A stretch of 24,690 nt of DNA, taken from the NCBI GenBank assembly GCA_946481275.1, contig CAMLMV010000070.1:1-24690 (forward strand), written 5' to 3'. The notes beneath the pieces are model-generated. The model was given only the letters and a program-made list of their open reading frames with translations, was not told where the DNA came from and did no database searches. How positions within the stretch are numbered: the first letter of the stretch is position 1; each line of letters opens with the position of its first letter. This DNA is from an uncultured Massilia sp. Lineage in GTDB: Bacteria > Pseudomonadota > Gammaproteobacteria > Burkholderiales > Burkholderiaceae. This document shows, piece by piece, positions 5,469-24,266 of this stretch. A program made the translations under genes and the position numbers.

Positions 5469-8400
5469 ATGAACATTGCCGCCTTCCCGGCTTCCACCTA
5501 CGTCCCTTTCGACGCCCTGCAGGCCGAAACCCGCCGCGAACAGACGCCGCTGCGTTCCGCGATCACCGCCGCCTACCGCCGTGACGAGACCACCGCCGTG
5601 GAATGGCTGCTGGCCCAGGGGGCCTGCGCCAACGGCGACGCCTACCTGCTGGCGCACCGCCTCGTCTCTGCCGTGCGCGAAAAACGGACGCGTTCGTCGG
5701 GCGTGGATGCGCTGATGCACGAATTCTCGCTGTCGTCGGAAGAAGGCGTCGCACTGATGTGCCTGGCCGAAGCGCTGCTGCGCATTCCCGACACGGAAAC
5801 GGCCGACCGCCTGATCGCCGACAAGATCAGCAAGGGCGACTGGAAGAAGCACCTGGGCGAATCGCCGTCGCTGTTCGTGAACGCCGCGACCTGGGGCCTG
5901 CTCGTCACCGGCAAGCTCGTGTCGTCCAGCAGCGAGAAGGGCCTGGGCGCCGCGCTGACCCGCATGATCGCCAAGGGCGGCGAACCGCTGATCCGCAAGG
6001 GCGTCGACCTCGCGATGCGCATGCTGGGCAACCAGTTCGTCACCGGCCAGACCATCGATGAAGCGCTGAAGAACAGCCGCGAGAACGAAACCCGCGGCTA
6101 CCGCTATTCCTACGACATGCTGGGCGAAGCGGCACTGACGGAATCCGACGCCGACAATTACTACGCCTCGTACGAAGCGGCCATCCACGCGATCGGCAAG
6201 GCCTCCAACGGCCGCGGCATCAAGGACGGTCCGGGCATCTCGATCAAGCTGTCGGCCCTGCATCCGAGATATAGCCGCGCGCAGTACGCCCGCGTGATGG
6301 GCGAGCTGCTGCCGCGCGTGCGCAAGCTCGTGCTGCTCGCCAAGGAGTACAACATCGGCATCAATATCGACGCCGAGGAAGCGGACCGCCTGGAAATCTC
6401 GCTGGACATGCTGGAAGCTCTGGCTTTCGATCCATCCTTGGCCGGCTTCGAAGGCATCGGCCTCGTCGTGCAGGCGTACCAGAAACGCTGCCCGTTCGTG
6501 ATCGATTTCGTCGTGGATCTTGCCCGCCGCAGCGGCCGCAAGTTCATGGTGCGCCTGGTCAAGGGCGCGTACTGGGATGCGGAGATCAAGCGCGCCCAGG
6601 TCGACGGCCTGCCGGGCTATCCGGTCTATACGCGCAAGATTTACACGGACGTGTCTTACCTCACGTGCGCGCGCAAGCTGCTGGCCGCGACGGACGTCAT
6701 CTATGCCCAGTTCGCCACGCACAATGCGCACTCGCTGTCCGTGATCTACACGTGGGCAAAGGCCGACAACGTCACCAATTACGAATTCCAGTGCCTGCAC
6801 GGCATGGGCGAAACCTTGTACGACCAGGTCGTCGGCAAGGAGAACCTGGGTAAAGCCTGCCGCATCTACGCGCCGGTCGGTTCGCACGAGACGCTGCTCG
6901 CCTACCTCGTGCGCCGCCTGCTGGAAAACGGCGCCAATTCGTCGTTCGTGAACCAGATCGTCGACGAGAGCGTGCCCATCGACACCCTGCTGACCGATCC
7001 ATTCGAAGCCGCGCGTGCCGCGCACTGCCTGCCGCACCCGCGCATTCCGCTGCCTTTGGCTCTGTTCCCGGACGGCCGCCGCAACTCCGCCGGCCTCGAT
7101 CTCGCCAATGAACACGTGCTGGCCGAACTGGCCGCCGACCTCGGCACGCCGCGCCACTACCTGGCCGCGCCGCTCGTCGACGGTGCGGTCGCCGCCGCCG
7201 GCGTGCTGAACATCGTGAATCCCGCGCAGTCGGCGGACATCGTCGGCCAGGTGACGGAAGCCACCACCGCCGATGTCGACACCGCCCTGCAGGCCGCCGT
7301 GAACGCCGCGCCCGGCTGGGAAGGCATCGGCAATGCGGCCCGCGCCGACATCATCGCCCGCGTCGGCGATTTGTTCGAACAATACCGCGGCGAACTGATG
7401 GCCCTGGCCGTGCGCGAAGCGGGCAAATCACTGCCGAACGCGATCGCGGAAGTGCGCGAAGCCGTCGATTTCCTGCGCTATTACGCGGCCGAGATCCGCA
7501 ATGCCCCGCAAGCCCGCGCGCTGGGACCGGTGACGTGTATCAGCCCCTGGAACTTCCCGCTCGCAATCTTCACGGGCCAGGTTGCGGCCGCGCTGGCCGC
7601 CGGCAACGTCGTGTTGGCAAAACCGGCTGAGCAGACGCCGCTGATTGCCCACCGCGCCGTGCAGTTGTTCCACCAAGCCGGTGTGCCGACAGGCGCGCTG
7701 CAACTGTTGCCGGGCCGCGGCGAGACCGTCGGTGCGGCGCTCACGGGCGATGCCCGCGTCAAGGCCGTGATCTTTACGGGCTCAACGGAAGTCGCGCAAT
7801 TGATCAACCGCACGCTGGCCGTCCGCGCCGCACAGGAAGGCGCCGACATCCCGCTGATCGCCGAGACGGGTGGCCAGAACGCGCTGGTCGTCGATTCGTC
7901 CGCGCTGCCGGAACAGGTCGTGCAGGATGTGCTCAGTTCCGCATTCGACAGCGCCGGCCAGCGCTGCTCCGCGCTGCGTGTGCTGTTCCTGCAGGAAGAT
8001 ATCGCGGATAAAACGATCAAGATGCTCAAGGGCGCGATGCAGGAACTGCGCGTGGGCGTGCCGGACCGCCTGTCCACCGACATCGGCCCCGTCATCGACA
8101 AGGAAGCCCAGCAGAACCTGCTCGGCCACATCGAGCGGATGAAAACGACGGCGAAGCAGCATTTCTCGCTGGTCCTGCCGGATGCCTTGCTGTCGCAGGG
8201 AACGTTCGTGCCGCCGACCGTGCTCGAGATCGGCTCGATGAGCGAACTGAAGCGTGAAGTCTTCGGCCCCGTGCTGCACATCGTGCGCTGGCGCCGCTCC
8301 GAGCTGGACAAGGTCGTCGACACGATCAACGCCACCGGCTACGGCCTCACCCTGGGCGTGCATTCGCGCATCGACGAGACGATCGAATTCATCACGACGC

Positions 8401-9104
8401 GCGCCCACGTCGGCAACATCTACGTGAACCGCAACATCGTGGGCGCCGTCGTCGGCGTGCAGCCGTTCGGCGGCGAAGGCAAATCCGGCACCGGTCCGAA
8501 GGCAGGCGGTCCGCTGTACCTGAAGCGCCTGCAAAAGGATGCGGCGCCGCTGCTGCGTCACGCACGCCGCAGCAATAACGCGCTGGACGGCCTGCTCGCC
8601 TGGGCGTGCGCGAACGGCCACGGCGACATCGCCGACCTCGCGCACGGTTACATGGAAACGACGCTGGACGGCGTGCGCATCGACTTGCCGGGCCCGACGG
8701 GCGAGCGCAACGAGCTCGATTTCGTCCCACGCGGCACCGTCCTGTGTGCGCCGAACGGCACGGCGAGCCTGCTGAACCAGCTGGCGGCCGCATTCGCGAC
8801 GGGCAATCGCGCGCTCGTGCTGGCGGAAGCGCTCCCGGCATTGCCGATCGCCGTCAGGGAACGCGTGCGTTTCATCACCGCGCAGGAACTGGACGGCAGC
8901 GAGTTCGCCATGGCTCTCGTCGAGCAGGGTCTCAAAGGAAATCTGCAGGCGCAGCTGGCGGCCCGTCCGGGCGCGATCGTCGGCATCGTCGATACCCGTG
9001 CGGGCGAACCGGTGGCGTTGTGGCGCCTGGTGGCGGAACGCGCCCTGTGCGTCAACACGACCGCGGCTGGAGGTAACGCAAGCCTGATGACGCTCGGTCT
9101 GTAA
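5469..9104 (+). CDS. putA: Bifunctional proline dehydrogenase / delta-1-pyrroline-5-carboxylate dehydrogenase
   Basis: 1211 aa. It oxidises proline to pyrroline-5-carboxylate (FAD) and then to glutamate (NAD+), channelling the intermediate; it acts peripherally at the membrane, feeding electrons to quinone. Residues about 1-195 are helical. The FAD barrel (about 197-500) shows SIKLSALHPRYSRAQ, GINIDAEEADRLEIS, VRLVKGAYWDAEIKRAQ and YLVRRLLENG (the substrate-binding Arg pair). The aldehyde dehydrogenase domain (about 580-1030) has SPWNFPLAIF, the general base in AETGGQN (Glu799) and the nucleophile in GQRCSA (Cys833). A C-terminal ALDH-fold domain (about 1030-1211) marks a type B PutA. The N-terminal ribbon-helix-helix repressor domain of the E. 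coli protein is absent, in keeping with the separate Lrp-type gene. No good ribosome binding site precedes the ATG. Confidence 0.97.
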   Translation: MNIAAFPASTYVPFDALQAETRREQTPLRSAITAAYRRDETTAVEWLLAQGACANGDAYLLAHRLVSAVREKRTRSSGVDALMHEFSLSSEEGVALMCLAEALLRIPDTETADRLIADKISKGDWKKHLGESPSLFVNAATWGLLVTGKLVSSSSEKGLGAALTRMIAKGGEPLIRKGVDLAMRMLGNQFVTGQTIDEALKNSRENETRGYRYSYDMLGEAALTESDADNYYASYEAAIHAIGKASNGRGIKDGPGISIKLSALHPRYSRAQYARVMGELLPRVRKLVLLAKEYNIGINIDAEEADRLEISLDMLEALAFDPSLAGFEGIGLVVQAYQKRCPFVIDFVVDLARRSGRKFMVRLVKGAYWDAEIKRAQVDGLPGYPVYTRKIYTDVSYLTCARKLLAATDVIYAQFATHNAHSLSVIYTWAKADNVTNYEFQCLHGMGETLYDQVVGKENLGKACRIYAPVGSHETLLAYLVRRLLENGANSSFVNQIVDESVPIDTLLTDPFEAARAAHCLPHPRIPLPLALFPDGRRNSAGLDLANEHVLAELAADLGTPRHYLAAPLVDGAVAAAGVLNIVNPAQSADIVGQVTEATTADVDTALQAAVNAAPGWEGIGNAARADIIARVGDLFEQYRGELMALAVREAGKSLPNAIAEVREAVDFLRYYAAEIRNAPQARALGPVTCISPWNFPLAIFTGQVAAALAAGNVVLAKPAEQTPLIAHRAVQLFHQAGVPTGALQLLPGRGETVGAALTGDARVKAVIFTGSTEVAQLINRTLAVRAAQEGADIPLIAETGGQNALVVDSSALPEQVVQDVLSSAFDSAGQRCSALRVLFLQEDIADKTIKMLKGAMQELRVGVPDRLSTDIGPVIDKEAQQNLLGHIERMKTTAKQHFSLVLPDALLSQGTFVPPTVLEIGSMSELKREVFGPVLHIVRWRRSELDKVVDTINATGYGLTLGVHSRIDETIEFITTRAHVGNIYVNRNIVGAVVGVQPFGGEGKSGTGPKAGGPLYLKRLQKDAAPLLRHARRSNNALDGLLAWACANGHGDIADLAHGYMETTLDGVRIDLPGPTGERNELDFVPRGTVLCAPNGTASLLNQLAAAFATGNRALVLAEALPALPIAVRERVRFITAQELDGSEFAMALVEQGLKGNLQAQLAARPGAIVGIVDTRAGEPVALWRLVAERALCVNTTAAGGNASLMTLGL

Positions 9105-9196: not shown

Positions 9197-10312
9197 ATGT
9201 TGATAGGCGTACCAAAAGAAATCAAAAACAATGAATTCCGGGTGGGCTTGACGCCCCCCAGCGTGCACGAACTGGTCGCGCGCGGCCATAAGGTCATCGT
9301 GCAGACCGGCGCCGGTGCCGGCATCGGGTTGACGGACGAGCAGTACACGGCCGCCGGCGCCACGATCGTCCCGTCGGCGCAAGAGATCTTCGCGCAGGCC
9401 GAGATGGTCGTGAAAGTGAAGGAACCGCAGCCGCAGGAATGCGCGATGCTGCGTCCGGGGCAGATCCTGTACACGTATCTGCACCTGGCGCCGGATCCGG
9501 AGCAGACGGCGGCCCTCGTGAAATCCGGCGCCGTGTGCATCGCCTATGAAACCATCACCGGCCCGGGCGGCGGCCTGCCGCTGCTGGCGCCGATGAGCGA
9601 GGTGGCGGGGCGGATGTCGATCCAGGCCGGCGCCAGCCACCTGGAAAAATCGAAGGGCGGCGCCGGCATCCTGCTGGGGGGCGTGCCGGGTGTGGCGGCG
9701 GGCCACATCGTCATCATCGGCGCCGGCGTCGTCGGCACGAATGCGTTGCAGATGGCGGTCGGCATCGGCGCGCGCGTCACCGTGCTCGACAAGAACGTCG
9801 ACCGCCTGCGCCAGCTCGACCTCGTCTACGGCAACCGGATCTCGACCCTGTATTCGAACGCCCACGCGATCGAGGAAGCGGTACTGTCGGCCGACCTCGT
9901 CATCGGCGGCGTGCTCGTGCCCGGTGCCGCGGCGCCGAAGCTCGTCACGCGCGACATGGTGTCACGGATGAAAACGGGATCCGTCGTCGTCGACGTGGCG
10001 ATCGACCAGGGCGGCTGCTTCGAAACGTCGCATCCGACGACGCACGCGGATCCGACATTCGTCGTGGACGGCGTTGTTCACTACTGCGTGGCGAACATGC
10101 CGGGCGCGGTGGCCCGCACGTCGACGTTTGCGCTGAACAACGCGACGATTGGCCACGCCGTCGCACTGGCGAACAAGGGCTGGCGGCAGGCGATGCGCGA
10201 CGACGTCCACCTCAAGAACGGCCTGAATGTTTGCGAAGGGAAAGTTACCTACGCGGCCGTCGCGAAGGATCTTGGCTACGACTACGTGCCGGCGGACACC
10301 CTGCTGGCCTGA
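9197..10312 (+). CDS. ald: Alanine dehydrogenase
   Basis: 371 aa, the usual length. NAD-dependent interconversion of L-alanine with pyruvate and ammonia; cytosolic hexamer. The N-terminus [20 protein letters not shown] is the family signature. The catalytic residues expected from the M. tuberculosis/Phormidium enzymes are present at matching positions: Lys75 (VVKVKEP), His96 (YLHLAPD) and Asp270 (VAIDQGG). The Rossmann glycine motif [11 protein letters not shown] is at about 173-183. The start is supported by CTGGAGG six bases upstream. It lies 92 bp after putA in the same direction, forming an amino-acid catabolism pair (proline and alanine). The 3' end overlaps the convergent nucleosidase gene by 31 bp. 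Confidence 0.96.
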
Positions 10313-11067
10313 TTCTGCCAGCCCAGGCAGAACTGCCTGACGATGTAAAAGGCATAACGCGCGGCCACCGATTTCACGAAACGCATGAAATCCGTGGCCG
10401 CGTGTTCATTGGCGTTGTCGGAAATCGTCCGGATGACGCCGAACGGGATGCCCAGCTCGAAACAGGCCTGCGCGACGGCGGCGCCTTCCATCTCCACCGC
10501 CAGCAGACCCGGCAATGCCGCATTCAACGCGTGTAGACGGTCCCTGTCGCTCACGAACTGGTCGGCGCTGGCGATGAGCCCACGATGCAGCCGCGGCCCG
10601 CTGAGCGCGAATACGGCCCTTTCTCCGGGGTCGACGGCCAGCGCGAAGTCGTCTTCCAGGAACCGATGTGCCGCATCGGCCAGTTGCAGCGCCATGTGGT
10701 GGTCCGACAGGAAGTGCGTCAAACCCGTCAGCGGTACCTCATAGCGGGGGAACAAAGGACTTGCATCCATGTCGTGCTGGACGAGCGATTCGGCCACGAC
10801 GATGTCGCCGACACGGATCGAAGCATCTCCAGCACCAGCCACGCCCGTAAAGAGGATGTGGGTAACACCGAACTTCTCCACAAGCGTTGCGGTCGTCAAT
10901 GCCGCTGCAACCTTGCCTATACGCGATAAAACGCACACAGCGTCGATTTCCCACAGTCGCCCGACAAAGTACTCGCGCATGCCGTGCGTGAGCTTGTAGG
11001 GCCCTTCCATGGCCTCCACGAGCCCCTGCTGTTCTTCGTGCAACGCACTGATGATCCCTAATCGCAT
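10282..11067 (-). CDS. mtnN: 5'-methylthioadenosine/S-adenosylhomocysteine nucleosidase family protein
   Basis: 261 aa, about 30 longer than the typical enzyme. It cleaves the glycosidic bond of methylthioadenosine, S-adenosylhomocysteine and 5'-deoxyadenosine, in methionine salvage and AI-2 precursor formation. The phosphorylase/nucleosidase fold starts MRLGIISALHEE. The three residues essential in the E. coli enzyme have counterparts: Glu12 (ALHEE), Glu194 in VEMEGAAVAQ and Asp217 in TISDNAN. The extra length comes from the middle (about 100-150, including SDHHMALQLADAAHRF) and from a C-terminal tail ([12 protein letters not shown]) that runs into the 3' end of ald on the other strand. AAGG lies seven bases before the ATG. 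The gene points away from the DnaA-box region that begins directly upstream. Confidence 0.88.
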   Translation of the reverse strand: MRLGIISALHEEQQGLVEAMEGPYKLTHGMREYFVGRLWEIDAVCVLSRIGKVAAALTTATLVEKFGVTHILFTGVAGAGDASIRVGDIVVAESLVQHDMDASPLFPRYEVPLTGLTHFLSDHHMALQLADAAHRFLEDDFALAVDPGERAVFALSGPRLHRGLIASADQFVSDRDRLHALNAALPGLLAVEMEGAAVAQACFELGIPFGVIRTISDNANEHAATDFMRFVKSVAARYAFYIVRQFCLGWQNQASRVSAGT

Positions 11068-11160
11068 GTTTCTGCCTTGTTCTGAAGCGGTTTATGAAGG
11101 GTTCTCGCGGCTTGTTCACGCTGTTCCCGCTGCTTTTGTATTAATAAAACAAAGATGTAT

Positions 11161-11366
11161 ATAAAAAATGGTAGTGATAGTAAACGCGTTCCCAGCTGTG
11201 GATAAGACGGAATTTGTCTACAGCGTCAACGGTTTACGTGCTCCCGGAGCGGCTGGACAAGCATTGTATCGATGCTGAACCGATGTTGGACAAAAACCGG
11301 GCGAGCAGAAAAAGCGGTCGTTCTGCACATCCGGTGCTGTGGATATGCAGCGGCTTTTCCACAGTC
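11161..11366. repeat. DnaA-box module A
   Basis: Left to right: GTAAAC (11180), box TTATCCACA on - (11197-11205), degenerate box TTGTCTACA on + (11214-11222), TCAA-N4-TTA core and GTTTAC (11226-11237), then after 141 bp from the first box the pair ATATCCACA on - (11338-11346) and TTTTCCACA on + (11355-11363). This is the most diverged copy: one box has lost the consensus. Confidence 0.85.
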
Positions 11367-11395
11367 GAGCTGATTTTGTCTGCCAACAGGACACT

Positions 11396-11616
11396 TGCAG
11401 GCTGCGAACGTTGTTCCGGTTGCAACGTTGGCATCAAGTTCTTTCTGTAGACAGTACAAACGCCGAGTAGTGGTTGCGTCAGCTGGTTTTGCATGCTCAC
11501 CAGGCCTGCAGGATGCGGACGGTGTTCCCACTGCGACGTCGGCATCGCGTTCTTCCTGTAGACAAACGGCAGTCGAACAGTGGTTGCGTCAGCTTTGTAT
11601 GGGACGGTGCGCAGTT
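11396..11616. repeat. Tandem repeat of about 110 bp inside the candidate origin
   Basis: Two diverged tandem copies, 11396-11506 and 11507-11616. Each begins TGCAGG, contains GGCATC then a CTGTAGACA motif (11445 and 11556) and the identical 14-mer TGGTTGCGTCAGCT (11471 and 11581). TGTAGACAA is the complement of the degenerate DnaA box TTGTCTACA seen in module A, so the copies may hold weak DnaA sites. Confidence 0.75.
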
Positions 11617-11721
11617 TCTTTTTTTTTTTGAAGACAAAAGAGCGTTTGCGTTGTGTCGGCTTCGCCGTTCAGCGCTGTCGGGCGAGTTGTCCTTCTTTAG
11701 TTAACTTGGAGAGAAAGAAAG

Positions 11722-11922
11722 GATAGTGATGATAGTAAACGCCGCCTGAACTGTGGATAAGCGGGATTTTTTCCACAAGCTCAAGGGTTTACATGCGTTC
11801 AAAGCGGTCGAACAAACCTTGTTTCTGTAGAGGACCAAAACTGGAGAAAAAATTCGCGATCGCCTTTCATGGCAGTTCCGCACATTCGATCCTGTGGATA
11901 TTCAGCAGCTTATCCACAAAAG
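11722..11922. repeat. DnaA-box module B
   Basis: GTAAAC (11735), box TTATCCACA on - (11752-11760), TTTTCCACA on + (11769-11777), TCAA-N4-TTA and GTTTAC (11781-11792), then ATATCCACA on - (11893-11901) and TTATCCACA on + (11910-11918). Spacings are 17, 35, 141 and 17 bp, as in module A. All four boxes are intact. Confidence 0.88.
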
Positions 11923-12128
11923 GATAGCAAACAGGGCGGTTGGGGCTGCCGAAAGCGGGCTTGGTCGACGTCGAGCAGGTGTCGTGGTCATGAACGTATC
12001 CGGAGTCGGTCGATTTTTTTGTCGGGCAGGACAGGACGATGTCGAAGATGCGTTGTGGCCGACGATAAGAATTTTTTCGGCAGGACCGCAGTCTTCGAAG
12101 CGCGTCGTCAGGTTTACAACCAAAAGCT

Positions 12129-12341
12129 TGTATACAGAATGATGGTAATAGTTAACGGTGGTGCTCTTCTGTGGATAAGCCGGGTTTTTTCCACAACATC
12201 AAACGTTTACGGTTCGCATAAGGCGGTGGGCTGGTCTTGTATGTGCCTTGTGGCAAAACTGGATAAAAATCCGGGCTGTGCGAAAAACCGATCTTCCTCA
12301 CATTTCGTACCTGTGGATATTCATACGCTTATCCACAGTCC
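12129..12341. repeat. DnaA-box module C
   Basis: GTTAAC (12151), box TTATCCACA on - (12170-12178), TTTTCCACA on + (12187-12195), TCAA-N4-TTA and GTTTAC (12199-12210), then ATATCCACA on - (12312-12320) and TTATCCACA on + (12329-12337). Spacings are 17, 35, 142 and 17 bp. It ends 66 bases before the GMC oxidoreductase start codon. Confidence 0.88.
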
Positions 12342-12406
12342 TGGGACCCCTTGTTGAGCTTGATCATCTGGTAAGCTTGCCTCAACGAATCACGATGCGA
12401 GGGTCC

Positions 12407-14032
12407 ATGGAGTCCGCAGGGGAGTTCGATGTCATCATTGTCGGGGCCGGTACCGCCGGCTGCGTGCTGGCCAATCGCCTCACGCGCAGGTCCGACGTGC
12501 ACGTGCTGTTGATCGAGGCGGGCGGTAAGGACGATTACCTGTGGATCCACATCCCCGTCGGCTACCTGTACTGCATCGGCAACCCGCGCACGGACTGGCT
12601 GTACAAAACGGAAGCGGATCCCGGCCTGGCGGGGCGGGCGCTGATCTATCCACGCGGTAAAGTCCTGGGCGGCAGTTCGTCGATCAACGGCATGATCTAC
12701 ATGCGCGGCCAGGCCGACGACTACGACCGCTGGGCCGCCATCACGGGCGACCTATCCTGGCGCTGGGATAACGTCCTGCCCATTTTTAAGGCAAGCGAAG
12801 ACCATCACGGCGGCGCCAGCGCCATCCACGGCAGCGGCGGCGAGTGGCGAGTCGAGCGCCAGCGGCTGTCCTGGGAAATCCTCGACGCCTTCCGGGAAGC
12901 GGCGCACCAGACGGGCATCCCGAAAGTCGACGATTTCAATGGCGGCGACAACGGCGGCTGTGCCTATTTCGAAGTCAACCAGCGGCGCGGCATCCGGCTG
13001 AATACGGCCAAGGCGTTTCTCAGGCCGGCCTCCACGCGGCCGAACCTGACGATCATGACGGGTTGTCACGTCGAAAAGCTGTTGATCGAGCAGACGGAGC
13101 AGGGCGCGATCTGCCGCGGCGTGCAATTCACGGGCGGCGGCCGCGCGTTCACGGCCACGGCGCGACGCGAAACCCTGCTGGCCGCCGGCGCCATCGGCTC
13201 GCCGCACATCCTGCAGTTGTCCGGCATCGGACCGGCGTCTTTGCTGCATCAGCATGGGATCACGCCCGTCGTCGATGCGCCCGGCGTGGGCGAAAATCTG
13301 CAGGATCATTTGCAACTGCGCATGGTGTATCGCATCACGGGCGCCCGCTCGCTCAATACGAGTGCCGCCTCTTGGTACGGCAAGATGAAAATCGGCGTGC
13401 AATACCTGCTGTTCCAGAGTGGGCCGATGTCGATGGCGCCATCGCAGCTGGGCGCGTTTGCCCGGTCCGATCCCGGCCAGGCGACGCCGAACCTCGAATA
13501 CCACGTGCAGCCGCTGTCGCTGGAAAAATTCGGCGATCCGCTGCACGGTTTCCCCGCCTTCACGGCCAGCGTGTGCAACCTGCGGCCGACGGCGCGGGGC
13601 CACGTCCGGCTCGCGGCGAACGACAGTTACGCGCCGCCGAAAATATCTCCGAACTATCTCAGCACGCCGGAAGACCGCAAGGTGGCGGCCGACGCGCTGG
13701 CGCTGACCCGGCGCATCGTCGCGGCACCCGCACTGGCGAAATACCGGCCGGAAGAGTTCAAGCCGGGCCCGCACTACCGCACGGAGGAAGAGCTGGCGGA
13801 AGCGGCCGGCCTCATCGGCACGACGATTTTCCACCCCGTCGGCACCTGCCGCATGGGCAAGCGGGACGATCCGCTCGCCGTCGTCGACAGCGAACTGCGG
13901 GTCAAGGGTGTCAGGGGACTACGCGTCGTCGACGCGTCCATCATGCCGACGATCACGTCCGGCAACACGAATTCACCCACGTTGATGATTGCCGAAAAGA
14001 CGGCCGCGCTGATCGACCGCGCGTGGTCGTAG
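12407..14032 (+). CDS. GMC-family FAD-dependent oxidoreductase (choline dehydrogenase-like)
   Basis: 541 aa from the ATG at 12407 (MESAGEFDVIIVGAGTAG); an in-frame ATG at 12395 is an alternative, and the frame remains open back into the DnaA-box region, which I take as chance. It oxidises an alcohol with FAD, but the substrate cannot be named from sequence. The dinucleotide-binding GxGxxG is residues 13-18 with the ribose-binding Glu37 (LLIEAGG). The GMC signature appears as YPRGKVLGGSSSINGMIYMRG (about 85-105). The C-terminal catalytic region has FHPVGTCRMG (His476) and SGNTNSPTLMIAEK (about 518-531). Length is typical. It directly precedes the liv-type operon in the same direction, but a promoter-like sequence between them suggests separate transcription. 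GAGGG lies three bases before the chosen ATG, unusually close. Confidence 0.9.
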   Translation: MESAGEFDVIIVGAGTAGCVLANRLTRRSDVHVLLIEAGGKDDYLWIHIPVGYLYCIGNPRTDWLYKTEADPGLAGRALIYPRGKVLGGSSSINGMIYMRGQADDYDRWAAITGDLSWRWDNVLPIFKASEDHHGGASAIHGSGGEWRVERQRLSWEILDAFREAAHQTGIPKVDDFNGGDNGGCAYFEVNQRRGIRLNTAKAFLRPASTRPNLTIMTGCHVEKLLIEQTEQGAICRGVQFTGGGRAFTATARRETLLAAGAIGSPHILQLSGIGPASLLHQHGITPVVDAPGVGENLQDHLQLRMVYRITGARSLNTSAASWYGKMKIGVQYLLFQSGPMSMAPSQLGAFARSDPGQATPNLEYHVQPLSLEKFGDPLHGFPAFTASVCNLRPTARGHVRLAANDSYAPPKISPNYLSTPEDRKVAADALALTRRIVAAPALAKYRPEEFKPGPHYRTEEELAEAAGLIGTTIFHPVGTCRMGKRDDPLAVVDSELRVKGVRGLRVVDASIMPTITSGNTNSPTLMIAEKTAALIDRAWS

Positions 14033-14132: not shown

Positions 14133-14168
14133 TTGTAAAGCTTGAATGGACGAAAGCGGGGAGACGCA

Positions 14169-14942
14169 ATGCCGGACGTCATTCTGGAAACACGTGATCT
14201 GACGAAGGAATTCAAGGGTTTTACGGCGGTCAACCAGGTGAGTCTGCAGGTGCAGCGCGGCCATATCCACGCGCTCATCGGACCCAATGGCGCCGGCAAG
14301 ACGACGTGCTTCAACCTGCTGACGAAGTTCCTGGCGCCGTCCGCCGGCCGCATCCTGTTCAACGGCACCGACATCACCTCGCTAAAACCGGCGCAGATCG
14401 CGCGCATGGGCATCATCCGCTCGTTCCAGATCTCGGCCGTGTTTCCTCATCTCACCGTGCTGGAAAACGTGCGCATCGGCCTGCAGCGCGCCCTCGGCAC
14501 CAGCTTTTATTTCTGGCGCAGCGAAAAGACCCTGAACCAGCTCAATGATCGCGCCATGGCTTTGCTGGCCGAAGTTGACCTGGCCGAATTCGCCGACACC
14601 ATCACGGCCGACCTGCCGTATGGCCGCAAGCGCGCGCTCGAGATCGCGACGACGCTCGGCATGGAGCCGGAACTCATGTTGCTGGACGAGCCGACGCAAG
14701 GCATGGGCCACGAAGATGTGCATCGCGTGACGGTACTGATCAAAAAAGTGTCAGCCGGCCGCACGATCCTGATGGTGGAACACAACATGAACGTCGTCTC
14801 AGGCATCTGCGACCGCATCTCCGTGCTGCAGCGGGGGGCCGTGCTGGCAGAAGGCAGTTACGCGGACGTATCGCGCAACCCGCAGGTCATCGAGGCGTAC
14901 ATGGGCAGCGCCGACAACAATCTGGCGGGAGCGCACGGATGA
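14169..14942 (+). CDS. livG: LivG-type ABC transporter ATP-binding protein
   Basis: 257 aa from the ATG at 14169 (MPDVILETRDLTKEF), with CGGGGA at a suitable distance; the TTG at 14142 is not favoured. Cytoplasmic ATPase of a branched-chain-amino-acid-type (HAAT) importer. Walker A is GPNGAGKTT (Lys44). The signature region is non-canonical, LPYGRKRALEIA (about 149-160) rather than LSGGQ. Walker B is LMLLDEP (Asp173, Glu174) and the switch His is His205 in VEHNM. LivG proteins commonly carry a Tyr-Gly type signature, so this is a family trait rather than decay. It is the first gene of a six-gene operon and overlaps livF by four bases (ATGA). Confidence 0.93.
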   Translation: MPDVILETRDLTKEFKGFTAVNQVSLQVQRGHIHALIGPNGAGKTTCFNLLTKFLAPSAGRILFNGTDITSLKPAQIARMGIIRSFQISAVFPHLTVLENVRIGLQRALGTSFYFWRSEKTLNQLNDRAMALLAEVDLAEFADTITADLPYGRKRALEIATTLGMEPELMLLDEPTQGMGHEDVHRVTVLIKKVSAGRTILMVEHNMNVVSGICDRISVLQRGAVLAEGSYADVSRNPQVIEAYMGSADNNLAGAHG

Positions 14943-15655
14943 CGCCGGCACTGGAGATCGAGAACCTGCAAGCCTGGTATGGCGAATCGCACATCCTGCA
15001 CGGCGTCAGTCTGTCCGTGCAGCCGGGCGAAGTCGTCACCCTGCTGGGCCGCAACGGTGCGGGCCGCACGACCGCCTTGCGCGCGATCATGGGGCTGACG
15101 GGGGCGCGCACCGGGTCGATCAAGGTCAATGGCGTCGAGGCGATCCGCCTGCCCACGCACCGCATCGCCCACCTCGGCATCGGCTATTGCCCGGAAGAGC
15201 GGGGCATTTTCGCGTCGCTGTCGGCCGAGGAAAACCTCATGTTGCCGCCGAAGCTGGCCGGCCGTGATGGGAAAATGAGCGGCATGAGCGTCGCCGAGAT
15301 CTACGAGATGTTCCCGAACCTGTACGAACGGCGCCACAGCCAGGGCACGCGGCTGTCCGGCGGCGAACAACAGATGCTGGCCGTCGCGCGCATCCTGCGC
15401 ACGGGCGCGAGACTCCTCTTGCTGGACGAGATCTCGGAAGGGCTGGCCCCGGTGATCGTGCAGGCGCTGGCGAAGATGATCACGACCCTCAAGGCAAAGG
15501 GCTACACGATCGTCATGGTGGAACAGAATTTCCGGTTCGCGGCGCCGCTGGCGGACCGGTTTTACGTCATGGAACACGGCCGCATCGTCACGACGATCGC
15601 GGCCGCGGAACTGCAGGCCAGCATGCCGGCATTGACCGAGCTGCTGGGCGTTTGA
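14939..15655 (+). CDS. livF: LivF-type ABC transporter ATP-binding protein with Walker A Lys-to-Arg change
   Basis: 238 aa, second ATPase of the importer. Walker A reads GRNGAGRTT: the phosphate-binding Lys is replaced by Arg43 (codon CGC at 15065-15067). The signature LSGGEQQ (139-145) is canonical, Walker B is LLLLDE (Asp163, Glu164), and the H-loop position is Gln196 (VEQN), as usual in LivF. Together with the non-canonical signature of LivG, this implies one consensus and one degenerate ATP site in the heterodimer. I recall Arg variants in some betaproteobacterial LivF proteins, so this need not be a defect. The start overlaps the livG stop (ATGA); the stop overlaps the upstream frame of the binding-protein gene. 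Confidence 0.93.
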   Translation: MTPALEIENLQAWYGESHILHGVSLSVQPGEVVTLLGRNGAGRTTALRAIMGLTGARTGSIKVNGVEAIRLPTHRIAHLGIGYCPEERGIFASLSAEENLMLPPKLAGRDGKMSGMSVAEIYEMFPNLYERRHSQGTRLSGGEQQMLAVARILRTGARLLLLDEISEGLAPVIVQALAKMITTLKAKGYTIVMVEQNFRFAAPLADRFYVMEHGRIVTTIAAAELQASMPALTELLGV

Positions 15656-15675
15656 TCATCGACAACGGAGACCAC

Positions 15676-16878
15676 ATGAAAACAGCGATTGCTTTTGCCG
15701 CCGCCGCCTTCGCGGCCGGTTTGTCCATGCCGGCGCTGGCCCAGATCTCGGGCGACACCATCAAAATCGGCATGATCACGGATTTATCGGGCGTGTATTC
15801 GGACATCGACGGCAATGGCGGCGCCGAAGCCGTGCGCATGGCGATCGCCGATGCAGGCGGCGCCATCAATGGTAAAAAAATCCAGTTCATCGTCGCCGAC
15901 CACCAGAACAAGCCGGACATCGCCGCCAGCAAGGCCCGTGAATGGTTCGACCAGCAGGGCGTCGACATGCTGATCGGCGGCACGAACTCCGGCGCCGCCC
16001 TGGCCATGGCCAAGGTCGCGGCGGAAAAGAAAAAAGTGTTCATTGCGATCGGTTCCGGCAGTGCGCAGCTGACCAACGAACAGTGCTCGCCGTACACCGT
16101 GCACTACGCCTACGACACGGTCGCGCTCGCTCGCGGCACGGGCGCCACGATGGTGAAGCAGGGCGGCAAGAGCTGGTATTTCCTCACGGCCGATTACGCG
16201 TTCGGCCAGTCGCTGGAAAAGGACACGACGGACGTCGTGAAGGCCAATGGCGGCACCGTGCTGGGCAGCGTGAAGCACCCGCTGGGGGCGTCCGACTTTT
16301 CGTCGTTCCTGCTGCAGGCGCAGTCGTCGAAAGCGCAGGTGCTGGGGCTGGCGAATGCCGGCGGCGACTTCATCAACTCCGTCAAGGCGGCGAAGGAATT
16401 CGGCCTCACCAGCAAGATGAAGATCGCGGGCCTGCTCGTGTTCATCAACGATATCCACACCCTCGGGCTGCAGACGACGCAGGGACTCTACCTGACGGAC
16501 GCCTGGTACTGGGACATGAACAACGACACCCGCGCGTGGGCGAAAAAATACTTCGCGAAGATGAAGAAGGAGCCGTCGTCGCTGCAGGCGGCCGATTATT
16601 CCGCCGCGATGAACTACCTGAACGCGGTGAAAGCGATCGGCACGGACGATAGCGACAAGGTCATGGCCCAACTCAAAAAGACCAAGATCAACGACATGTT
16701 CACGAAGAACGGCGAGATCCGTCCGGACGGCCGCATGGTGCACGACATGTACCTGATGCAGGTCAAGACGCCGGCCGAATCGAAAGCGCCATGGGATTAC
16801 TACAAGGTCGTGGCCACGATCCCGGGTGCCCAGGCATACACGACCAAGGCCGAGACCAAGTGCGCGGCCTGGAAGTGA
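15676..16878 (+). CDS. Periplasmic substrate-binding protein of a HAAT (branched-chain amino acid type) ABC transporter
   Basis: 400 aa from the ATG at 15676 (MKTAIAFAAAAFAAG), preceded by CGGAG; the in-frame ATC codons before it are not needed. Signal peptide of about 23 residues with an ALA-Q cleavage site. The mature protein begins ISGDTIKIGMITDLSGVYSDIDG and has the Leu/Ile/Val-binding-protein fold (two Rossmann-like lobes). Two Cys residues (NEQCSPY and the C-terminal TKCAAWK) could form a disulfide. It differs from classical LivJ/LivK, and relatives of this type also bind aromatic or other small acids, so branched-chain amino acids are not a safe ligand. Its place in the middle of livGF-SBP-livHM shows it delivers to this transporter. 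Confidence 0.92.
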   Translation: MKTAIAFAAAAFAAGLSMPALAQISGDTIKIGMITDLSGVYSDIDGNGGAEAVRMAIADAGGAINGKKIQFIVADHQNKPDIAASKAREWFDQQGVDMLIGGTNSGAALAMAKVAAEKKKVFIAIGSGSAQLTNEQCSPYTVHYAYDTVALARGTGATMVKQGGKSWYFLTADYAFGQSLEKDTTDVVKANGGTVLGSVKHPLGASDFSSFLLQAQSSKAQVLGLANAGGDFINSVKAAKEFGLTSKMKIAGLLVFINDIHTLGLQTTQGLYLTDAWYWDMNNDTRAWAKKYFAKMKKEPSSLQAADYSAAMNYLNAVKAIGTDDSDKVMAQLKKTKINDMFTKNGEIRPDGRMVHDMYLMQVKTPAESKAPWDYYKVVATIPGAQAYTTKAETKCAAWK

Positions 16879-16899
16879 GCCTGACGTAAGCACGTGCCC

Positions 16900-17784
16900 A
16901 TGGAAATTTTCGGCGTCCCCCTGCAGGCGATGATGAGCCAGCTGCTGCTGGGCCTGGTGAACGGTTCGTTCTACGCGATGCTGTCGCTGGGCCTGGCCGT
17001 CATCTTCGGCCTGCTCAACGTGATCAATTTTTCGCATGGCGCGTTGTACATGATGGGCGCGTTTGCCGCGTACATCGGCGTCACGTCGTTCGGATTGAAT
17101 TACTGGACGATGCTCGTGCTGGCGCCGCTCCTCGTCGGCGCGTTCGGCATCCTGATCGAAAAGACGATGCTGCGTTGGCTCTACAAGTTCGACCATTTGT
17201 ACGGCCTGCTGCTGACCTTCGGCATCACCTTGCTGCTGGAAGGCCTGTTCCGCTCGTTCTTCGGCGTGTCCGGTCAGACTCTGGACGTGCCGGAAGTGCT
17301 GTCCGGCGCCACCGACCTCGGCTTCATGATCCTGCCGAACTACCGCGCCTGGGTCGTGTTCGCCTCGCTCGTCGTGTGCCTGGCGACGTGGTTCACGATC
17401 GAAAAGACGCGGTTGGGCGCCTACCTGCGCGCCGGCACGGAAAACCCGAAACTGGTCGAAGCGTTCGGCGTCAACGTCCCGTTGATGGTGACATTGACCT
17501 ACGGCTTCGGCGTCGCGCTGGCGGGCTTTGCGGGCGTGCTGGCGGCGCCCGTCATCAACGTCACGCCGCTGATGGGCTCCAACCTGATCATCGTCGTGTT
17601 CGCCGTCGTCGTGATCGGCGGCATGGGGTCCATCCTCGGCTCCATCGTCACGGGCCTGGCGCTGGGCGTCATCGAAGGGCTCACGCGCGTGTATTACCCG
17701 GAAGCGTCGGAAGTCGTCGTGTTCGTCGTGATGGTGATCGTGCTGCTGCTGCGTCCCGCCGGCCTGTTCGGCAAGGAGAAATGA
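16900..17784 (+). CDS. livH: LivH-type ABC transporter permease
   Basis: 294 aa from the ATG at 16900 (MEIFGVPLQAMMSQLLLGLVNGSFYAMLSLGLAVIFGLLN); a GTG at 16894 would add two residues. Inner-membrane subunit with about eight hydrophobic segments. The typical LivH motif NVINFSHGALYMMGAF follows the first segments. The ATPase-coupling loop with EKTRLGAYLRAGTENPKLVEAFGVN lies at about 170-195. No clear ribosome binding site is visible. It lies 21 bases after the binding-protein gene and four bases before livM. Confidence 0.92.
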   Translation: MEIFGVPLQAMMSQLLLGLVNGSFYAMLSLGLAVIFGLLNVINFSHGALYMMGAFAAYIGVTSFGLNYWTMLVLAPLLVGAFGILIEKTMLRWLYKFDHLYGLLLTFGITLLLEGLFRSFFGVSGQTLDVPEVLSGATDLGFMILPNYRAWVVFASLVVCLATWFTIEKTRLGAYLRAGTENPKLVEAFGVNVPLMVTLTYGFGVALAGFAGVLAAPVINVTPLMGSNLIIVVFAVVVIGGMGSILGSIVTGLALGVIEGLTRVYYPEASEVVVFVVMVIVLLLRPAGLFGKEK

Positions 17785-17788
17785 GGCC

Positions 17789-18769
17789 ATGATCATGAAC
17801 AGAACCCTCGGCTACGGCCTCGCATTGGTGGTGGCGCTGGCGGCGCCGTTCGTCGGCTACCCGGTCTTCCTCATGAAGCTGCTGTGCTTCGGCCTGTTCG
17901 CCTGCGCCTTCAACCTGCTGATCGGCTATACCGGGTTGCTGTCGTTCGGCCATGCGGCGTTCTTCGGCGGCGCCGGCTACGTCACGGGCCATGCGCTGGC
18001 GGTGCTCGGTCTGCCGTTCGAGGCGGCGCTCGTGCTGGGCGTACTGGCGGCCGCGGCGCTGGGTTTCGTCATGGGACTGCTGGCGATCCGCCGCCAGGGC
18101 ATTTATTTTTCGATGATCACGCTGGCGCTCGCGCAGATGGTGTATTTCGCGGCGCTGCGCGCGCCATTTACGCATGGCGAGGATGGGCTGCAGGGCGTCC
18201 CGCGCGGCAAGCTGCTGGGCAGCATCGACCTCGGTAACGACCTGACCCTGTACTACGTCGTGCTGGCGATTTGCGTGGCCGGCTTCGCCCTGATCGTGCG
18301 CACGGTGCATTCGCCGTTCGGGCAGGTGCTGAAGGCGATCAAGGAAAACGAAGCGCGCGCCATGTCCCTGGGCTACGACGTGGACCGCTATAAACTCGTC
18401 GCCTTCGTCCTGTCGGCCGCGCTGGCCGGCCTGGCGGGTGCGACGAAGACCGTCGTGCTCGGCTTCGAGACGCTGACGGACGTGCACTGGACGATGTCCG
18501 GCCTCGTCATCCTGATGACGCTCGTGGGCGGCATGGGCACCCTGGCGGGCCCGATCCTGGGCGCCTTCCTTGTCGTCGCGCTGGAGAACAAGCTGGGCGA
18601 CCTGGGGAACTTCCTGGCCGAGACGACGCATGTAGAATGGTTCGCATCACTCGGAGAATCGGTGGGCATCGTCACCGGCCTCATCTTTGTCGCCTGCGTG
18701 CTGTTGTTCCGCCGGGGTATCGTCGGCGAGATCGCTGCGGTACTTCACGCTCCGGTTTCAAGGAGGTGA
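17789..18769 (+). CDS. livM: LivM-type ABC transporter permease
   Basis: 326 aa. Second membrane subunit of the importer, with LIGYTGLLSFGHAAFFGGAGYVTGHAL (the LivM counterpart of the LivH FSHGA motif) at about residue 44-70. The coupling loop includes HSPFGQVLKAIKENEARAMSLGYDVDRYK. About eight to nine hydrophobic segments. An alternative ATG lies two codons downstream. GAGG just before the start overlaps the livH stop. The livM stop TGA (18767-18769) follows directly on the AAGGAGG ribosome binding site of the next gene, which indicates translational coupling. Confidence 0.92.
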   Translation: MIMNRTLGYGLALVVALAAPFVGYPVFLMKLLCFGLFACAFNLLIGYTGLLSFGHAAFFGGAGYVTGHALAVLGLPFEAALVLGVLAAAALGFVMGLLAIRRQGIYFSMITLALAQMVYFAALRAPFTHGEDGLQGVPRGKLLGSIDLGNDLTLYYVVLAICVAGFALIVRTVHSPFGQVLKAIKENEARAMSLGYDVDRYKLVAFVLSAALAGLAGATKTVVLGFETLTDVHWTMSGLVILMTLVGGMGTLAGPILGAFLVVALENKLGDLGNFLAETTHVEWFASLGESVGIVTGLIFVACVLLFRRGIVGEIAAVLHAPVSRR

Positions 18770-20800: not shown

Positions 20801-22735
20801 ATGCTATTTCCGACTGAATTCGACGTGATCGTCGTTGGCGGCGGCCATGCCGGCACCGAAGCGGCGCTCGCGTCTGCGCGCATGGGCCAGAAGACCCTGT
20901 TGCTCACTCATAACATCGAAACCCTGGGTGCGATGTCCTGCAACCCGTCCATCGGCGGTATCGGCAAGGGCCATCTCGTCAAGGAAGTGGACGCCATGGG
21001 CGGCGCGATGGCCATTGCCACCGACGAAGCCGGTATCCAGTTCCGCATCCTGAACTCTTCGAAGGGTCCGGCCGTGCGCGCCACGCGTGCGCAGGCCGAC
21101 CGCATGCTGTACAAGCAGGCGATCCGTTCGCGCCTGGAAAACCAGCCGAACCTGTGGCTGTTCCAGCAGGCCGTCGACGACCTGATGGTCGAAGGCGACC
21201 GTGTCGTCGGCGCCGTCACGCAGATCGGCCTGCGCTTCCGCGCGCGCGCCGTCGTGCTGACGGCCGGTACTTTCCTCGACGGTAAGATCCACGTCGGCCT
21301 GCAAAATTACTCGGCCGGCCGTGCCGGTGACCCGCCGGCGGTATCGCTGTCGTCGCGCCTGAAAGAACTCAAACTGCCGCAGGGCCGCCTCAAAACCGGC
21401 ACGCCGCCGCGCATCGATGGCCGCAGCATCGACTTCGCCGTCATGACGGAACAGCCGGGCGACCTCGATCCGGTCCCGGTGTTTTCGTACATGGGCAATG
21501 CCGCGATGCATCCGAAGCAATTGCCCTGCTGGGTCACGCACACAAATGCGCAGACGCACGACATCATCCGCAACGGCCTCGACCGCAGCCCGATGTACAC
21601 GGGCGTGATCGAGGGCGTCGGCCCGCGCTACTGCCCGTCGATCGAAGACAAGATCCACCGTTTCGCGTCGAAGGAATCGCACCAGATCTTCCTCGAGCCG
21701 GAAGGCCTCACCACGAACGAGTTTTATCCGAACGGTATCTCGACGAGCCTGCCGTTCGACGTGCAGCTGGCCTTGGTGCGCTCGATGCGCGGCCTGGAAA
21801 ACGCATTCATCCTGCGCCCTGGCTATGCGATCGAATACGATTATTTCGACCCGCGCGGCCTGAAGGCATCGCTGGAGACGAAGGCGATCCAGGGCCTGTT
21901 CTTCGCCGGCCAGATCAACGGCACCACCGGCTACGAAGAAGCGGCGGCCCAGGGCATGCTGGCAGGTATCAACGCGGCGCTGCAGACGCAGGGGCGCGAT
22001 GCGTGGACGCCGTCGCGCTCCGAAGCGTACCTCGGCGTGCTCGTCGACGATCTCACGACGCAGGGTGTGGCGGAACCGTACCGCATGTTCACGAGCCGCG
22101 CCGAATACCGCCTGTCGCTGCGCGAAGACAATGCGGATATGCGCCTGACAGAGATCGGTCGCAAGCTGGGCGTCGTCGGCGATGCGCAGTGGGAAGCGTT
22201 CGAGCGCAAGCGTGAAGCGGTCGCGCGCGAACTGGAACGACTGCGGGCGACGTGGGTGAATCCACGCATCCTCGCCGCAGCCGAATCCGAACGCGTGATC
22301 GGCCAGGCCATTGAGCGCGAGTACAACCTGGCGGACCTGCTGCGCCGTCCGGGTGTGGAGTACGACAAGCTGGTCACCCTGCAGGGTGTCGACGGCCAGG
22401 CGCTGGGCGGTCCGGGCGTGGAAGATCCGGCCGTGAAGGAGCAGGTCGAGATCCAGCTGAAGTATTCGGGCTATATCGACCGCCAGGCACGCGAGGTCGA
22501 ACGCCACGATCACTATGAAAACCTGAAACTGCCCGAGAACCTGAACTATCTCGAGATTGCGGCGTTGTCGATCGAAGTGCGCCAGAAGCTCGATAAGCAG
22601 CGTCCGGAAACGCTGGGCCAGGCCTCGCGCATTTCTGGTGTGACGCCGGCGGCAATTTCCCTGCTGCTCGTGCACCTGAAAAAACGTGGCGCCAAAGGTT
22701 TTGGGAGTGTCCCGAACGAGGAATCGGCCGCATGA
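20801..22735 (+). CDS. mnmG: tRNA uridine-5-carboxymethylaminomethyl(34) synthesis protein MnmG (GidA)
   Basis: 644 aa, the usual length. With MnmE it installs the (carboxymethyl)aminomethyl group on wobble U34 of tRNAs, using FAD, NADH and methylene-THF. FAD-binding [12 protein letters not shown] (GGGHAG at 13-18), the [20 protein letters not shown] segment with its conserved Cys, the family signature [12 protein letters not shown] (about residues 270-281), [16 protein letters not shown] (about 369-384), and the helical C-terminal domain for MnmE/tRNA contact are all present. There is no clear ribosome binding site before the ATG. It overlaps rsmG by four bases (ATGA). The mnmG-rsmG-parA-parB order is the classical origin-proximal arrangement. 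Confidence 0.98.
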
Positions 22736-23379
22736 AGAATTTCGATCGAGCGGCCTTGTCTGCCGTGCTGGACGAGGGCATCGCCGCGATGCGTCTCGAC
22801 GTCAGTCCGGCCCAGCAGGACAAGCTGATGAATTACCTGGCCCTGATGTTCAAGTGGAATGCGGTCTATAACCTGACGTCGTTGCGCGACCCGATGCAGA
22901 TGGTCACGCACCATCTGCTGGACTCGCTGGCCGCCGTGCCGGCCTTCGCGGCCGCGAAAAACGTGCTCGACGTGGGTTCTGGCGGCGGTCTGCCCGGCAT
23001 CGTGCTGGCAATCGTGCGGCCAGACATGAAAGTGTCGATGATCGACACGGTCCACAAAAAAACGGCGTTTCTTACGCAGGTGAAGGCGGAGCTGGGCCTG
23101 GCCAACGTCACGGTGTACACGGCACGGGTGGAGCAACTGCAGGTGAGCGAGAAATTCGACGTCATCACCTCGCGTGCATTTGCCGACCTGTCGGATTTCG
23201 TCAACTGGTCTTCGCACCTGCTGGCAGACGGCGGACGTTATATCGCCTTGAAAGGGGTGGCCCCGAAAGACGAACAGGAAAGGCTGCCGGCAGAATGGAA
23301 GGTCGACAAGGTGGAACCGCTGGACGTACCGAGGCTAGGCGCCGAACGCCACCTGGTATTCATCGAACGTTCCACGTGA
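22732..23379 (+). CDS. rsmG: 16S rRNA (guanine-527-N7) methyltransferase RsmG (GidB)
   Basis: 215 aa. SAM-dependent methylation of G527 in the 530 loop of 16S rRNA; loss gives low-level streptomycin resistance in other bacteria. The family motif [13 protein letters not shown] (about 43-55) is followed by HHLLDSL, the SAM-binding [15 protein letters not shown] (about 80-94), and SRAFADL (about 147-153). The start codon lies in the mnmG stop, so the two are translationally coupled. The last five codons, including the stop, form most of parS site 3, so the C-terminal ERST sequence is partly dictated by that site. Confidence 0.97.
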
Positions 23380-23495: not shown

Positions 23496-24266
23496 ATGGC
23501 GAAAATTTTTTGCGTAGCAAACCAGAAGGGCGGGGTCGGCAAGACCACGACCAGCGTGAACCTGTCCGCCGGCCTCGCCAGGCTGAACCAGCGCGTGCTG
23601 CTGGTCGACCTCGACCCGCAGGGCAATGCCACCATGGGCGCGGGCATCAACAAGGCGGGGCTGACCTCGTCGATCTATGAGGTGCTGCTGGGCGAGGCCG
23701 ATGTGGCCACGGCGCGCCTGCGCAGCGAAGCAGGGCGCTTCGACGTGCTGCCCGCCAACCGCGAACTGGCAGGCGCCGAAGTGGAGATGGTCGAGCTGGA
23801 AAACCGCGAGCGCCGCCTGAAGGAAGCGCTGGCCAAGGTCGATGCCGACTACGATTTCATTTTGATCGACTGCCCGCCCGCGCTGTCGATGCTGACCCTG
23901 AACGGTCTCGTGTCCGCGCACGGCGTCATCATCCCGATGCAGTGCGAGTATTACGCGCTGGAAGGCCTGTCGGATCTCGTGAACACGATCAAGAAGGTGC
24001 ATGCGAACCTGAACCATGATCTGCGCATCATCGGCCTGCTGCGCGTGATGTTCGATCCGCGCATGACGCTGTCGCAGCAGGTGTCGGCGCAGCTCGAGCA
24101 GCATTTCGGCGACAAGGTGTTCAAGACGATCATCCCGCGCAACGTGCGCCTGGCGGAAGCGCCGTCGTACGGCATCCCGGGCGTCACGTTCGACCCGTCT
24201 TCGAAAGGCGCGCAGGCCTACATCGCCTTCGGTGCCGAGATGGTCGAGCGCATCAAGACTATGTAA
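23496..24266 (+). CDS. parA: Chromosome-partitioning ATPase ParA (Soj-like)
   Basis: 256 aa, the short chromosomal type without an N-terminal DNA-binding domain. The deviant Walker A NQKGGVGKTTTSVNLSAGLA carries the signature Lys11 and the phosphate-binding Lys16. Further motifs are VDLDPQGNAT (Walker A' region, 37-46), FILIDCPPALSMLTLNGL (Walker B, about 121-138) and RLAEAPSYGIP near residue 215. ATP-bound dimers coat the nucleoid and move ParB-parS complexes. AAAGG lies about eight bases before the ATG. An overlapping +1-frame start at 23477 is a chance frame. It is followed after 18 bases by parB. Confidence 0.97.
   Translation: MAKIFCVANQKGGVGKTTTSVNLSAGLARLNQRVLLVDLDPQGNATMGAGINKAGLTSSIYEVLLGEADVATARLRSEAGRFDVLPANRELAGAEVEMVELENRERRLKEALAKVDADYDFILIDCPPALSMLTLNGLVSAHGVIIPMQCEYYALEGLSDLVNTIKKVHANLNHDLRIIGLLRVMFDPRMTLSQQVSAQLEQHFGDKVFKTIIPRNVRLAEAPSYGIPGVTFDPSSKGAQAYIAFGAEMVERIKTM

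Follow-up and report, generated by a model that had tools for sequence, protein, structure and literature searches.

We show that the 24,690-bp stretch of Massilia DNA analyzed here (hereafter the window) carries, between a nucleosidase gene and a GMC oxidoreductase gene, three ordered copies of one DnaA-box module, and we conclude that this locus very probably is the replication origin, oriC (probability roughly 0.9). We observe the sites, their geometry, their conservation and, in related genomes, where they lie with respect to dif and mnmG, as well as a methylase gene of the right family in six relatives; origin activity is what we infer. A fuller account, in which an oriC of three ordered, anciently duplicated modules combines trio-like opening, looping and methylation control, is likely as well, if a little less secure.

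The window contains 14 DnaA boxes with at most one mismatch to TTATCCACA, 11 of them within 11197–12337, and exact matches to TTWTCCACA number eight against 0.12 expected from shuffled sequences (largest shuffle value, two). Each module consists of two inverted box pairs. In module 1 (left edges 11197/11214 and 11338/11355), the first pair (11197–11222) joins TTATCCACA on the minus strand to a degenerate TTGTCTACA with two mismatches on the plus strand, and the second pair (11338–11363), 141 bp from the first, joins ATATCCACA(−) to TTTTCCACA(+). Module 2 (left edges 11752/11769 and 11893/11910) has TTATCCACA(−) and TTTTCCACA(+) at 11752–11777 and, 141 bp away, ATATCCACA(−) and TTATCCACA(+) at 11893–11918; module 3 (left edges 12170/12187 and 12312/12329) repeats the same two pairs at 12170–12195 and, 142 bp away, at 12312–12337. 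The modules thus read 17-141-17, 17-141-17 and 17-142-17 bp, with all six pairs at 17 bp, and CACAG is present in eight of the 12 boxes.

The preliminary description of this DNA had reported eleven DnaA boxes in three modules, with 17 bp within pairs and 141, 141 and 142 bp between them. The left-edge coordinates bear out both statements and add one degenerate twelfth box, at 11214; as this is the second box of module 1, the fixed order of box types that was also claimed is valid at 11 of 12 positions. Its range of 11120–12345 left out another 17-bp pair (left edges 10857/10874), which lies in the nucleosidase gene.

This additional inverted pair (10857–10882; TTACCCACA on the minus strand, TTCTCCACA on the plus strand) is DnaA-box-like, consists of two of the three near-consensus boxes that the window has outside 11197–12337, and falls within the coding sequence for the peptide VEKFGVTH. 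Across 43 distinct contexts, the first valine of the peptide is encoded by GTG in 42 and the second by GTT in all 43, and GTT makes up 3.4% of valine codons in the 17 gene frames of the window; the skewed codon bases are part of the two boxes, and the pair with its unusual synonymous codons is kept across Massilia- and Janthinobacterium-type loci. Since these contexts share descent, we take the codon bias to suggest, at most, that the origin extends into the nucleosidase gene. Pfam assignments place proline utilisation A (5469–9104), alanine dehydrogenase (9197–10312) and the phosphorylase-superfamily nucleosidase (10282–11067, minus strand) on one side of the modules, and the GMC oxidoreductase (reading frame 12248–14032, start codon provisional) and branched-chain amino-acid ABC transporter genes (14142–18769) on the other. 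A scan of the window against Rfam found no family at its gathering score. Between modules 1 and 2 lie two 58-bp direct repeats (11396–11453 and 11507–11564; 111 bp apart, 81% alike), which contain no DnaA boxes with one mismatch or fewer.

The first pair of each module is embedded in a larger core element, which in module 1 (11153–11239, plus strand; 73.5 bits) comprises AT-rich sequence, a TAG/TAA repeat, GTAAAC, a spacer, the first pair and GTTTAC. Our model of this element uses only sequence (AT flank, TAG/TAA repeat, GTWWAC, first pair and GTTTAC) and was built from 47 copies after two of 49 alignment rows, being out of register, were removed. It finds three full matches in the window, all at the modules and at 64–74 bits (module 2, 11719–11794, plus strand, 63.8 bits; module 3, 12124–12212, plus strand, 68.9 bits), and the next best match scores 17 bits.

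The repeat itself has the TAG/TAA-rich consensus TAGTAGTAATAGTAAACG, preceded by TATA-rich sequence. Read on the other strand and away from the box, it is 3′-AAT GAT AAT GAT GAT-5′, which has the form of DnaA-trios, and its strand presumably agrees with that of the Bacillus subtilis trios. Trios were scored by a strict rule and by a tolerant TAG/TAA count over five triplets; in 163 modules the tolerant score averages 3.56 at first pairs versus 0.28 at second pairs, read in the same orientation as a control, and 1.01 in shuffled sequences, the orientation of each module having been chosen by the trio score, which favors the first-pair value. Of the 163 modules, 107 have an IHF-like match that starts at +27 and has no more than one mismatch (nine are perfect), and in the window it is found at module 3 only; such matches suggest that the modules may contain an IHF site.

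The spacing of the boxes is retained among relatives while much of the remaining sequence drifts. We compared 31 loci, namely positions 10501–12900 of the window and 30 relatives of its genus found by DNA similarity: all 188 convergent pairs with two or fewer mismatches in total, scanned at distances of 10–39 bp, are spaced by exactly 17 bp, and the pair-to-pair order 141/141/142 recurs in all 20 loci in which three modules were detected. The other 11 loci show two modules at the thresholds used, and one of them, L061, has 142 bp at the place of module 2. The distances between modules are loose in the 20 three-module loci (415–643 and 332–778 bp). In a broader set of 163 distinct modules from 101 loci, which includes other genera, some loci found through the geometry itself and several copies of the same species with only identical modules merged, the spacing is 141 bp in 101, 140 in 35, 142 in 26 and 139 in one. 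When modules are compared across genomes, the nearest neighbor bears the same number in 59 of 60 cases; identity averages 82% for same-numbered modules of different genomes versus 62% for different modules of one genome. We conclude that the triplication is old and that the spacing within modules has been kept while the rest drifts; the earlier proposal of selection on geometry is upheld, and the ordered triplication is the distinctive trait of the locus.

Evidence at the scale of the whole chromosome comes from relatives of the window's genome. We located dnaA and mnmG in 23 relatives with assemblies of 1–7 contigs, and a dif pattern (up to three mismatches) was matched in 19 of 20 genomes. 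The dif comparison covers 16 relatives, 11 of them single-contig and five in which the largest contig was taken as the circle; G264, G304 and G329, with no length, and G002, with no dif match, were left out of the count, and where dif was matched twice, as in three genomes, we took the better match. In these 16 relatives the locus lies at 0.469–0.536 of the circle from dif, with a mean deviation from the point opposite dif of 0.012 of the circle for the locus versus 0.050 for dnaA (Wilcoxon p 0.0008); the locus is closer to that point in 13 and dnaA in three, and the two are 265–568 kb apart.

The window also holds the origin-linked genes mnmG (gidA; 20801–22735, plus strand), followed by rsmG (22732–23379) and a parA-like gene (23496–24266), all by Pfam; mnmG, rsmG and parA are named as origin genes in the accessible text of PMC2099444. 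The preliminary description regarded such a location, close to mnmG and apart from dnaA, as unusual for a betaproteobacterium. This view is not supported: the core element lies 4–27 kb from mnmG in all 20 genomes from 11 other genera (19 single-contig), with dnaA about 20 to 720 kb away (distances partly approximate, G130 excluded), so that proximity to mnmG is a family-wide property. G002 belongs both to these 20 genomes and to the 23 relatives above.

The least stable 50 bp of the window by nearest-neighbor energies, 11134–11183, adjoins the repeat of module 1 (its rank is fifth with 80-bp windows) and is a candidate primary DNA unwinding element. Box density points to the same place: among 40 sampled 20-kb stretches of the single-contig relative G301, of which two overlap by 8 kb and one spans dnaA, the locus has eight exact boxes and each of the other 39 has two or fewer. 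Together with the position opposite dif, this sole dense cluster, the unstable stretch and a match to the locus in all 62 genus genomes support the oriC reading well. Skew, a check that the preliminary description had proposed, gave a weak signal: plain GC skew over samples of 20 kb and third-codon skew, after correction for the coding strand, run in a direction that fits the locus, and the interval between dnaA and the locus is intermediate in three of three genomes sampled. For KOPS, this interval differs from the left arm in G301 (p 0.001) and from the right arm in G281 and G049 (p 0.005 and 0.03), as expected with an origin at the locus in each case, but in the pooled count only 34 sites fit the locus versus 26 that fit dnaA. 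G281 and G329 have many weak extra DnaA-domain matches of equal score in frames of 265–273 aa, which may be helper ATPases of insertion sequences.

The window has nine GTWWAC sites (11180, 11232, 11700, 11735, 11787, 12112, 12130, 12151 and 12205, spanning 11180–12210), and all are in the locus, where 2000 draws from a Markov model give a mean of 1.1 and a largest value of six; seven control hexamers similar in composition occur 0–2 times in the locus and 2–37 times elsewhere. Within modules the site has preferred places: 159 of 163 modules have one at −19 to −17, at the end of the repeat, and 116 of 163 have one at +35. The 20-kb sample with the locus contains 12, 16 and 20 sites in three relatives, versus 0–11 in other samples; the samples with 11 are from G281 and G049, which have 16 and 20 at the locus. 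A PF01555 methylase (E about 5e-55 or better) was found in all six relatives searched, with a second copy in G281 (1e-26). The G301 protein, the one compared, matches PDB 8urk over 244 residues (E 2.8e-122), an entry listed as 'Methyltransferase' and which we take to be M.BceJIV. The latter reportedly engages two recognition sequences at once, a property of interest here since GTWWAC sites come in sets. The G301 methylase gene is near 2.209 Mb (L207), about 200 kb from the origin locus, and the frames flanking it look like hisD and hisC. In the accessible texts, the GTWWAC enzyme is reported to be conserved across Burkholderiaceae (PMC5390034), a total of 392 GTWWAC sites is given for the genome of Ralstonia GMI1000 (PMC11460718), and the B. 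cenocepacia origins have methylated CACAG and nearby GTWWAC sites (PMC7364216).

Our observations suggest a mechanism, to whose details we give about even odds. DnaA would bind the inverted 17-bp pair beside the DnaA-trio-like TAG/TAA repeat in each module, pass onto the repeat strand and open the adjoining AT-rich DNA; the second inverted pair, 141–142 bp off, would receive a looped-back or second DnaA assembly, with the IHF-like site possibly supplying the bend. First opening would be likeliest at module 1, beside the least stable DNA, and the part of modules 2 and 3 would be to contribute cooperativity or control. The conserved methylase would act on GTWWAC at +35 and at the junction of repeat and spacer; on this proposal, fresh hemimethylated modules would differ from old ones. 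We also put forward, as a tentative and rather doubtful extension, a multi-start origin, a single oriC in which three unwinding modules have been preserved independently and each has its own methylation switch: the switch would sit at the junction where DnaA goes from double to single strand, one methylase would time all three modules together, and the ordered module identity of 141/141/142 would mean that each module has its own task.

The main competitor to an origin is a datA-like locus, which would titrate DnaA or favor its inactivation while replication actually starts at dnaA. Such a locus would account for the many boxes, the IHF-like site in some modules and the hundreds of kilobases to dnaA in the 16 relatives, and two genome papers of the group do place the origin at dnaA: the accessible texts for Janthinobacterium HH01 and Herbaspirillum SmR1 both do so by skew and gene position, and that for SmR1 also reports DnaA binding sequences near dnaA. 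However, boxes are scarce at dnaA (0 or 1 in each of eight short dnaA loci, three of them shortened upstream by the contig start; one exact box in the 20 kb around G301 dnaA), dif lies opposite the module locus, the least stable stretch and the trio-like repeat suit an unwinding site, and the core element keeps its place near mnmG in the 20 genomes of 11 further genera. This alternative, raised in the preliminary description, is thus disfavored and in our judgment very unlikely.

Two other alternatives accept the origin and dispute a part of its mechanism. The TAG/TAA repeat might bind another protein and not be a DnaA-trio, opening being left to the AT flank and second-pair looping. The strict published rule for a BUS (a run of at least three NAN triplets no more than 16 bp from a box) speaks for this, as it holds in none of the three window modules (runs of 2, 2 and 1) and in 45 of 163 modules (118 fail) versus 41% of shuffled sequences, and so does not discriminate; the window repeats are interrupted (TAG/TAA in 3, 3 and 2 of five triplets), and many core-element copies contain TGA or a frame slip within the repeat. 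Yet first pairs show the TAG/TAA enrichment and second pairs do not, the spacers being mostly 10–15 bp across the 163 modules, and loci titled Janthinobacterium, e.g. L152, read TAG TAG TAA TAG TAA; in the accessible text of PMC8287927, TAG/TAA (3′-GAT-5′) repeats beside a DnaA box are the DnaA-trio form and the commonest BUS spacer is 13 bp. We regard a repeat of another kind as rather unlikely. Slightly easier to entertain, though still on the unlikely side, is the idea that GTWWAC is a by-product of AT-rich repeat and DnaA-box context and that its methylation has no role: the end of the repeat shares bases with GTAAAC and the IHF-like match shares bases with GTTTAC, and for B. cenocepacia methylase mutants the accessible text judges the replication impact limited from growth, with a change in relative nucleoid size (PMC7364216). 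Against it stand the concentration of all nine window sites in the locus compared with the control hexamers, the extra GTATAC and GTTAAC sites outside the repeat, and the PF01555 methylase in all six genomes.

Among known systems, datA of E. coli resembles the locus as a DnaA-box cluster away from dnaA; it is not known to have an unwinding element or to lie opposite dif. E. coli oriC has one box array, one AT-rich side and GATC with SeqA, whereas the Massilia locus has repeated modules and GTWWAC instead of GATC/SeqA; the two share a place near gidA (mnmG) and away from dnaA, adenine-methylation sites inside and an IHF bend (putative in Massilia). The E. coli origin lies between gidA and mioC according to the accessible text of PMC10225481. 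The BUS of Bacillus subtilis and others has, in the accessible text, the same succession of DnaA box, short spacer, TAG/TAA repeat and AT-rich flank (PMC8287927); the Massilia locus differs in its three ordered copies per origin, inverted instead of tandem box pairs, interrupted repeats in the window and GTWWAC at the junction.

A close likeness within Burkholderiales is the chromosome-1 origin region of Burkholderia cenocepacia, with DnaA boxes, an AT-rich block and an IHF site (PMC4948915, PMC7364216) and GTWWAC and CACAG methylation sites among the boxes (PMC7364216). In the accessible parts of these papers, that origin is located from its genetic context, the skew minimum and the density of boxes (PMC4948915, PMC7364216), the tags BCAL0024 (GidA) and BCAL0423 (DnaA) point to a large distance between dnaA and gidA in that genome as well, the authors describe the features as dispersed and the exact origin as unclear, and neither tandem modules nor a fixed 17/141 geometry is described. 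Our search of the open-access literature found no tandem-module origin described in this group and no paper on a Massilia oriC with DnaA boxes; DoriC, outside that search, may list the location as a prediction. If our reading is true, it fixes where replication starts in a large group of environmental bacteria, offers a natural series of origins with one, two or three core elements in which to study why more than one unwinding site is needed, and gives the conserved GTWWAC methylase a concrete place in replication control, like Dam and CcrM elsewhere.

The locus is matched by DNA similarity in 62 of 62 genomes of the genus, so that the modules are not absent from close relatives, an outcome that the preliminary description thought would weaken a core role. 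In a set in which each species is represented by one genome, 52 stretches contain the complete design (a pair of 17-bp pairs 138–146 bp apart); as these were retrieved by geometry, their spacing is not independent evidence. Titles name Massilia, Telluria, Janthinobacterium, Undibacterium or Herbaspirillum in 47, and the remainder are four Burkholderiaceae (two), Burkholderiales or Pseudomonadota MAGs and one Cytophagales MAG. The contig of the last (L181) has two 17-bp inverted pairs 146 bp apart and 14 near-consensus boxes, and is either convergent or a contaminant. Among the 20 matches listed of 676 records in a plasmid search, similarity is to the GMC part of the query and not to the locus.

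With strict filters, the core-element model matches 256 of the 294 genomes in the GTDB family, from 33 of its 44 genera, and most of these genomes have two copies; in the wider class, 10 of 273 other genomes have one weak match each (E 9e-8 to 7e-4). Three copies are usual in the window's genus (g1; two in G114, G172 and G183), in g4 (two in one of five genomes) and in g6, and g5 has one. Three matches also occur in four of five g15 genomes (G055, G078, G097 and G113), so that the third core element is not confined to the Massilia group: it is found in the Massilia and Janthinobacterium groups and in one other genus. In four genomes of g22 and g23 (G162, G173, G184 and G129), the two core elements are inverted instead of tandem.
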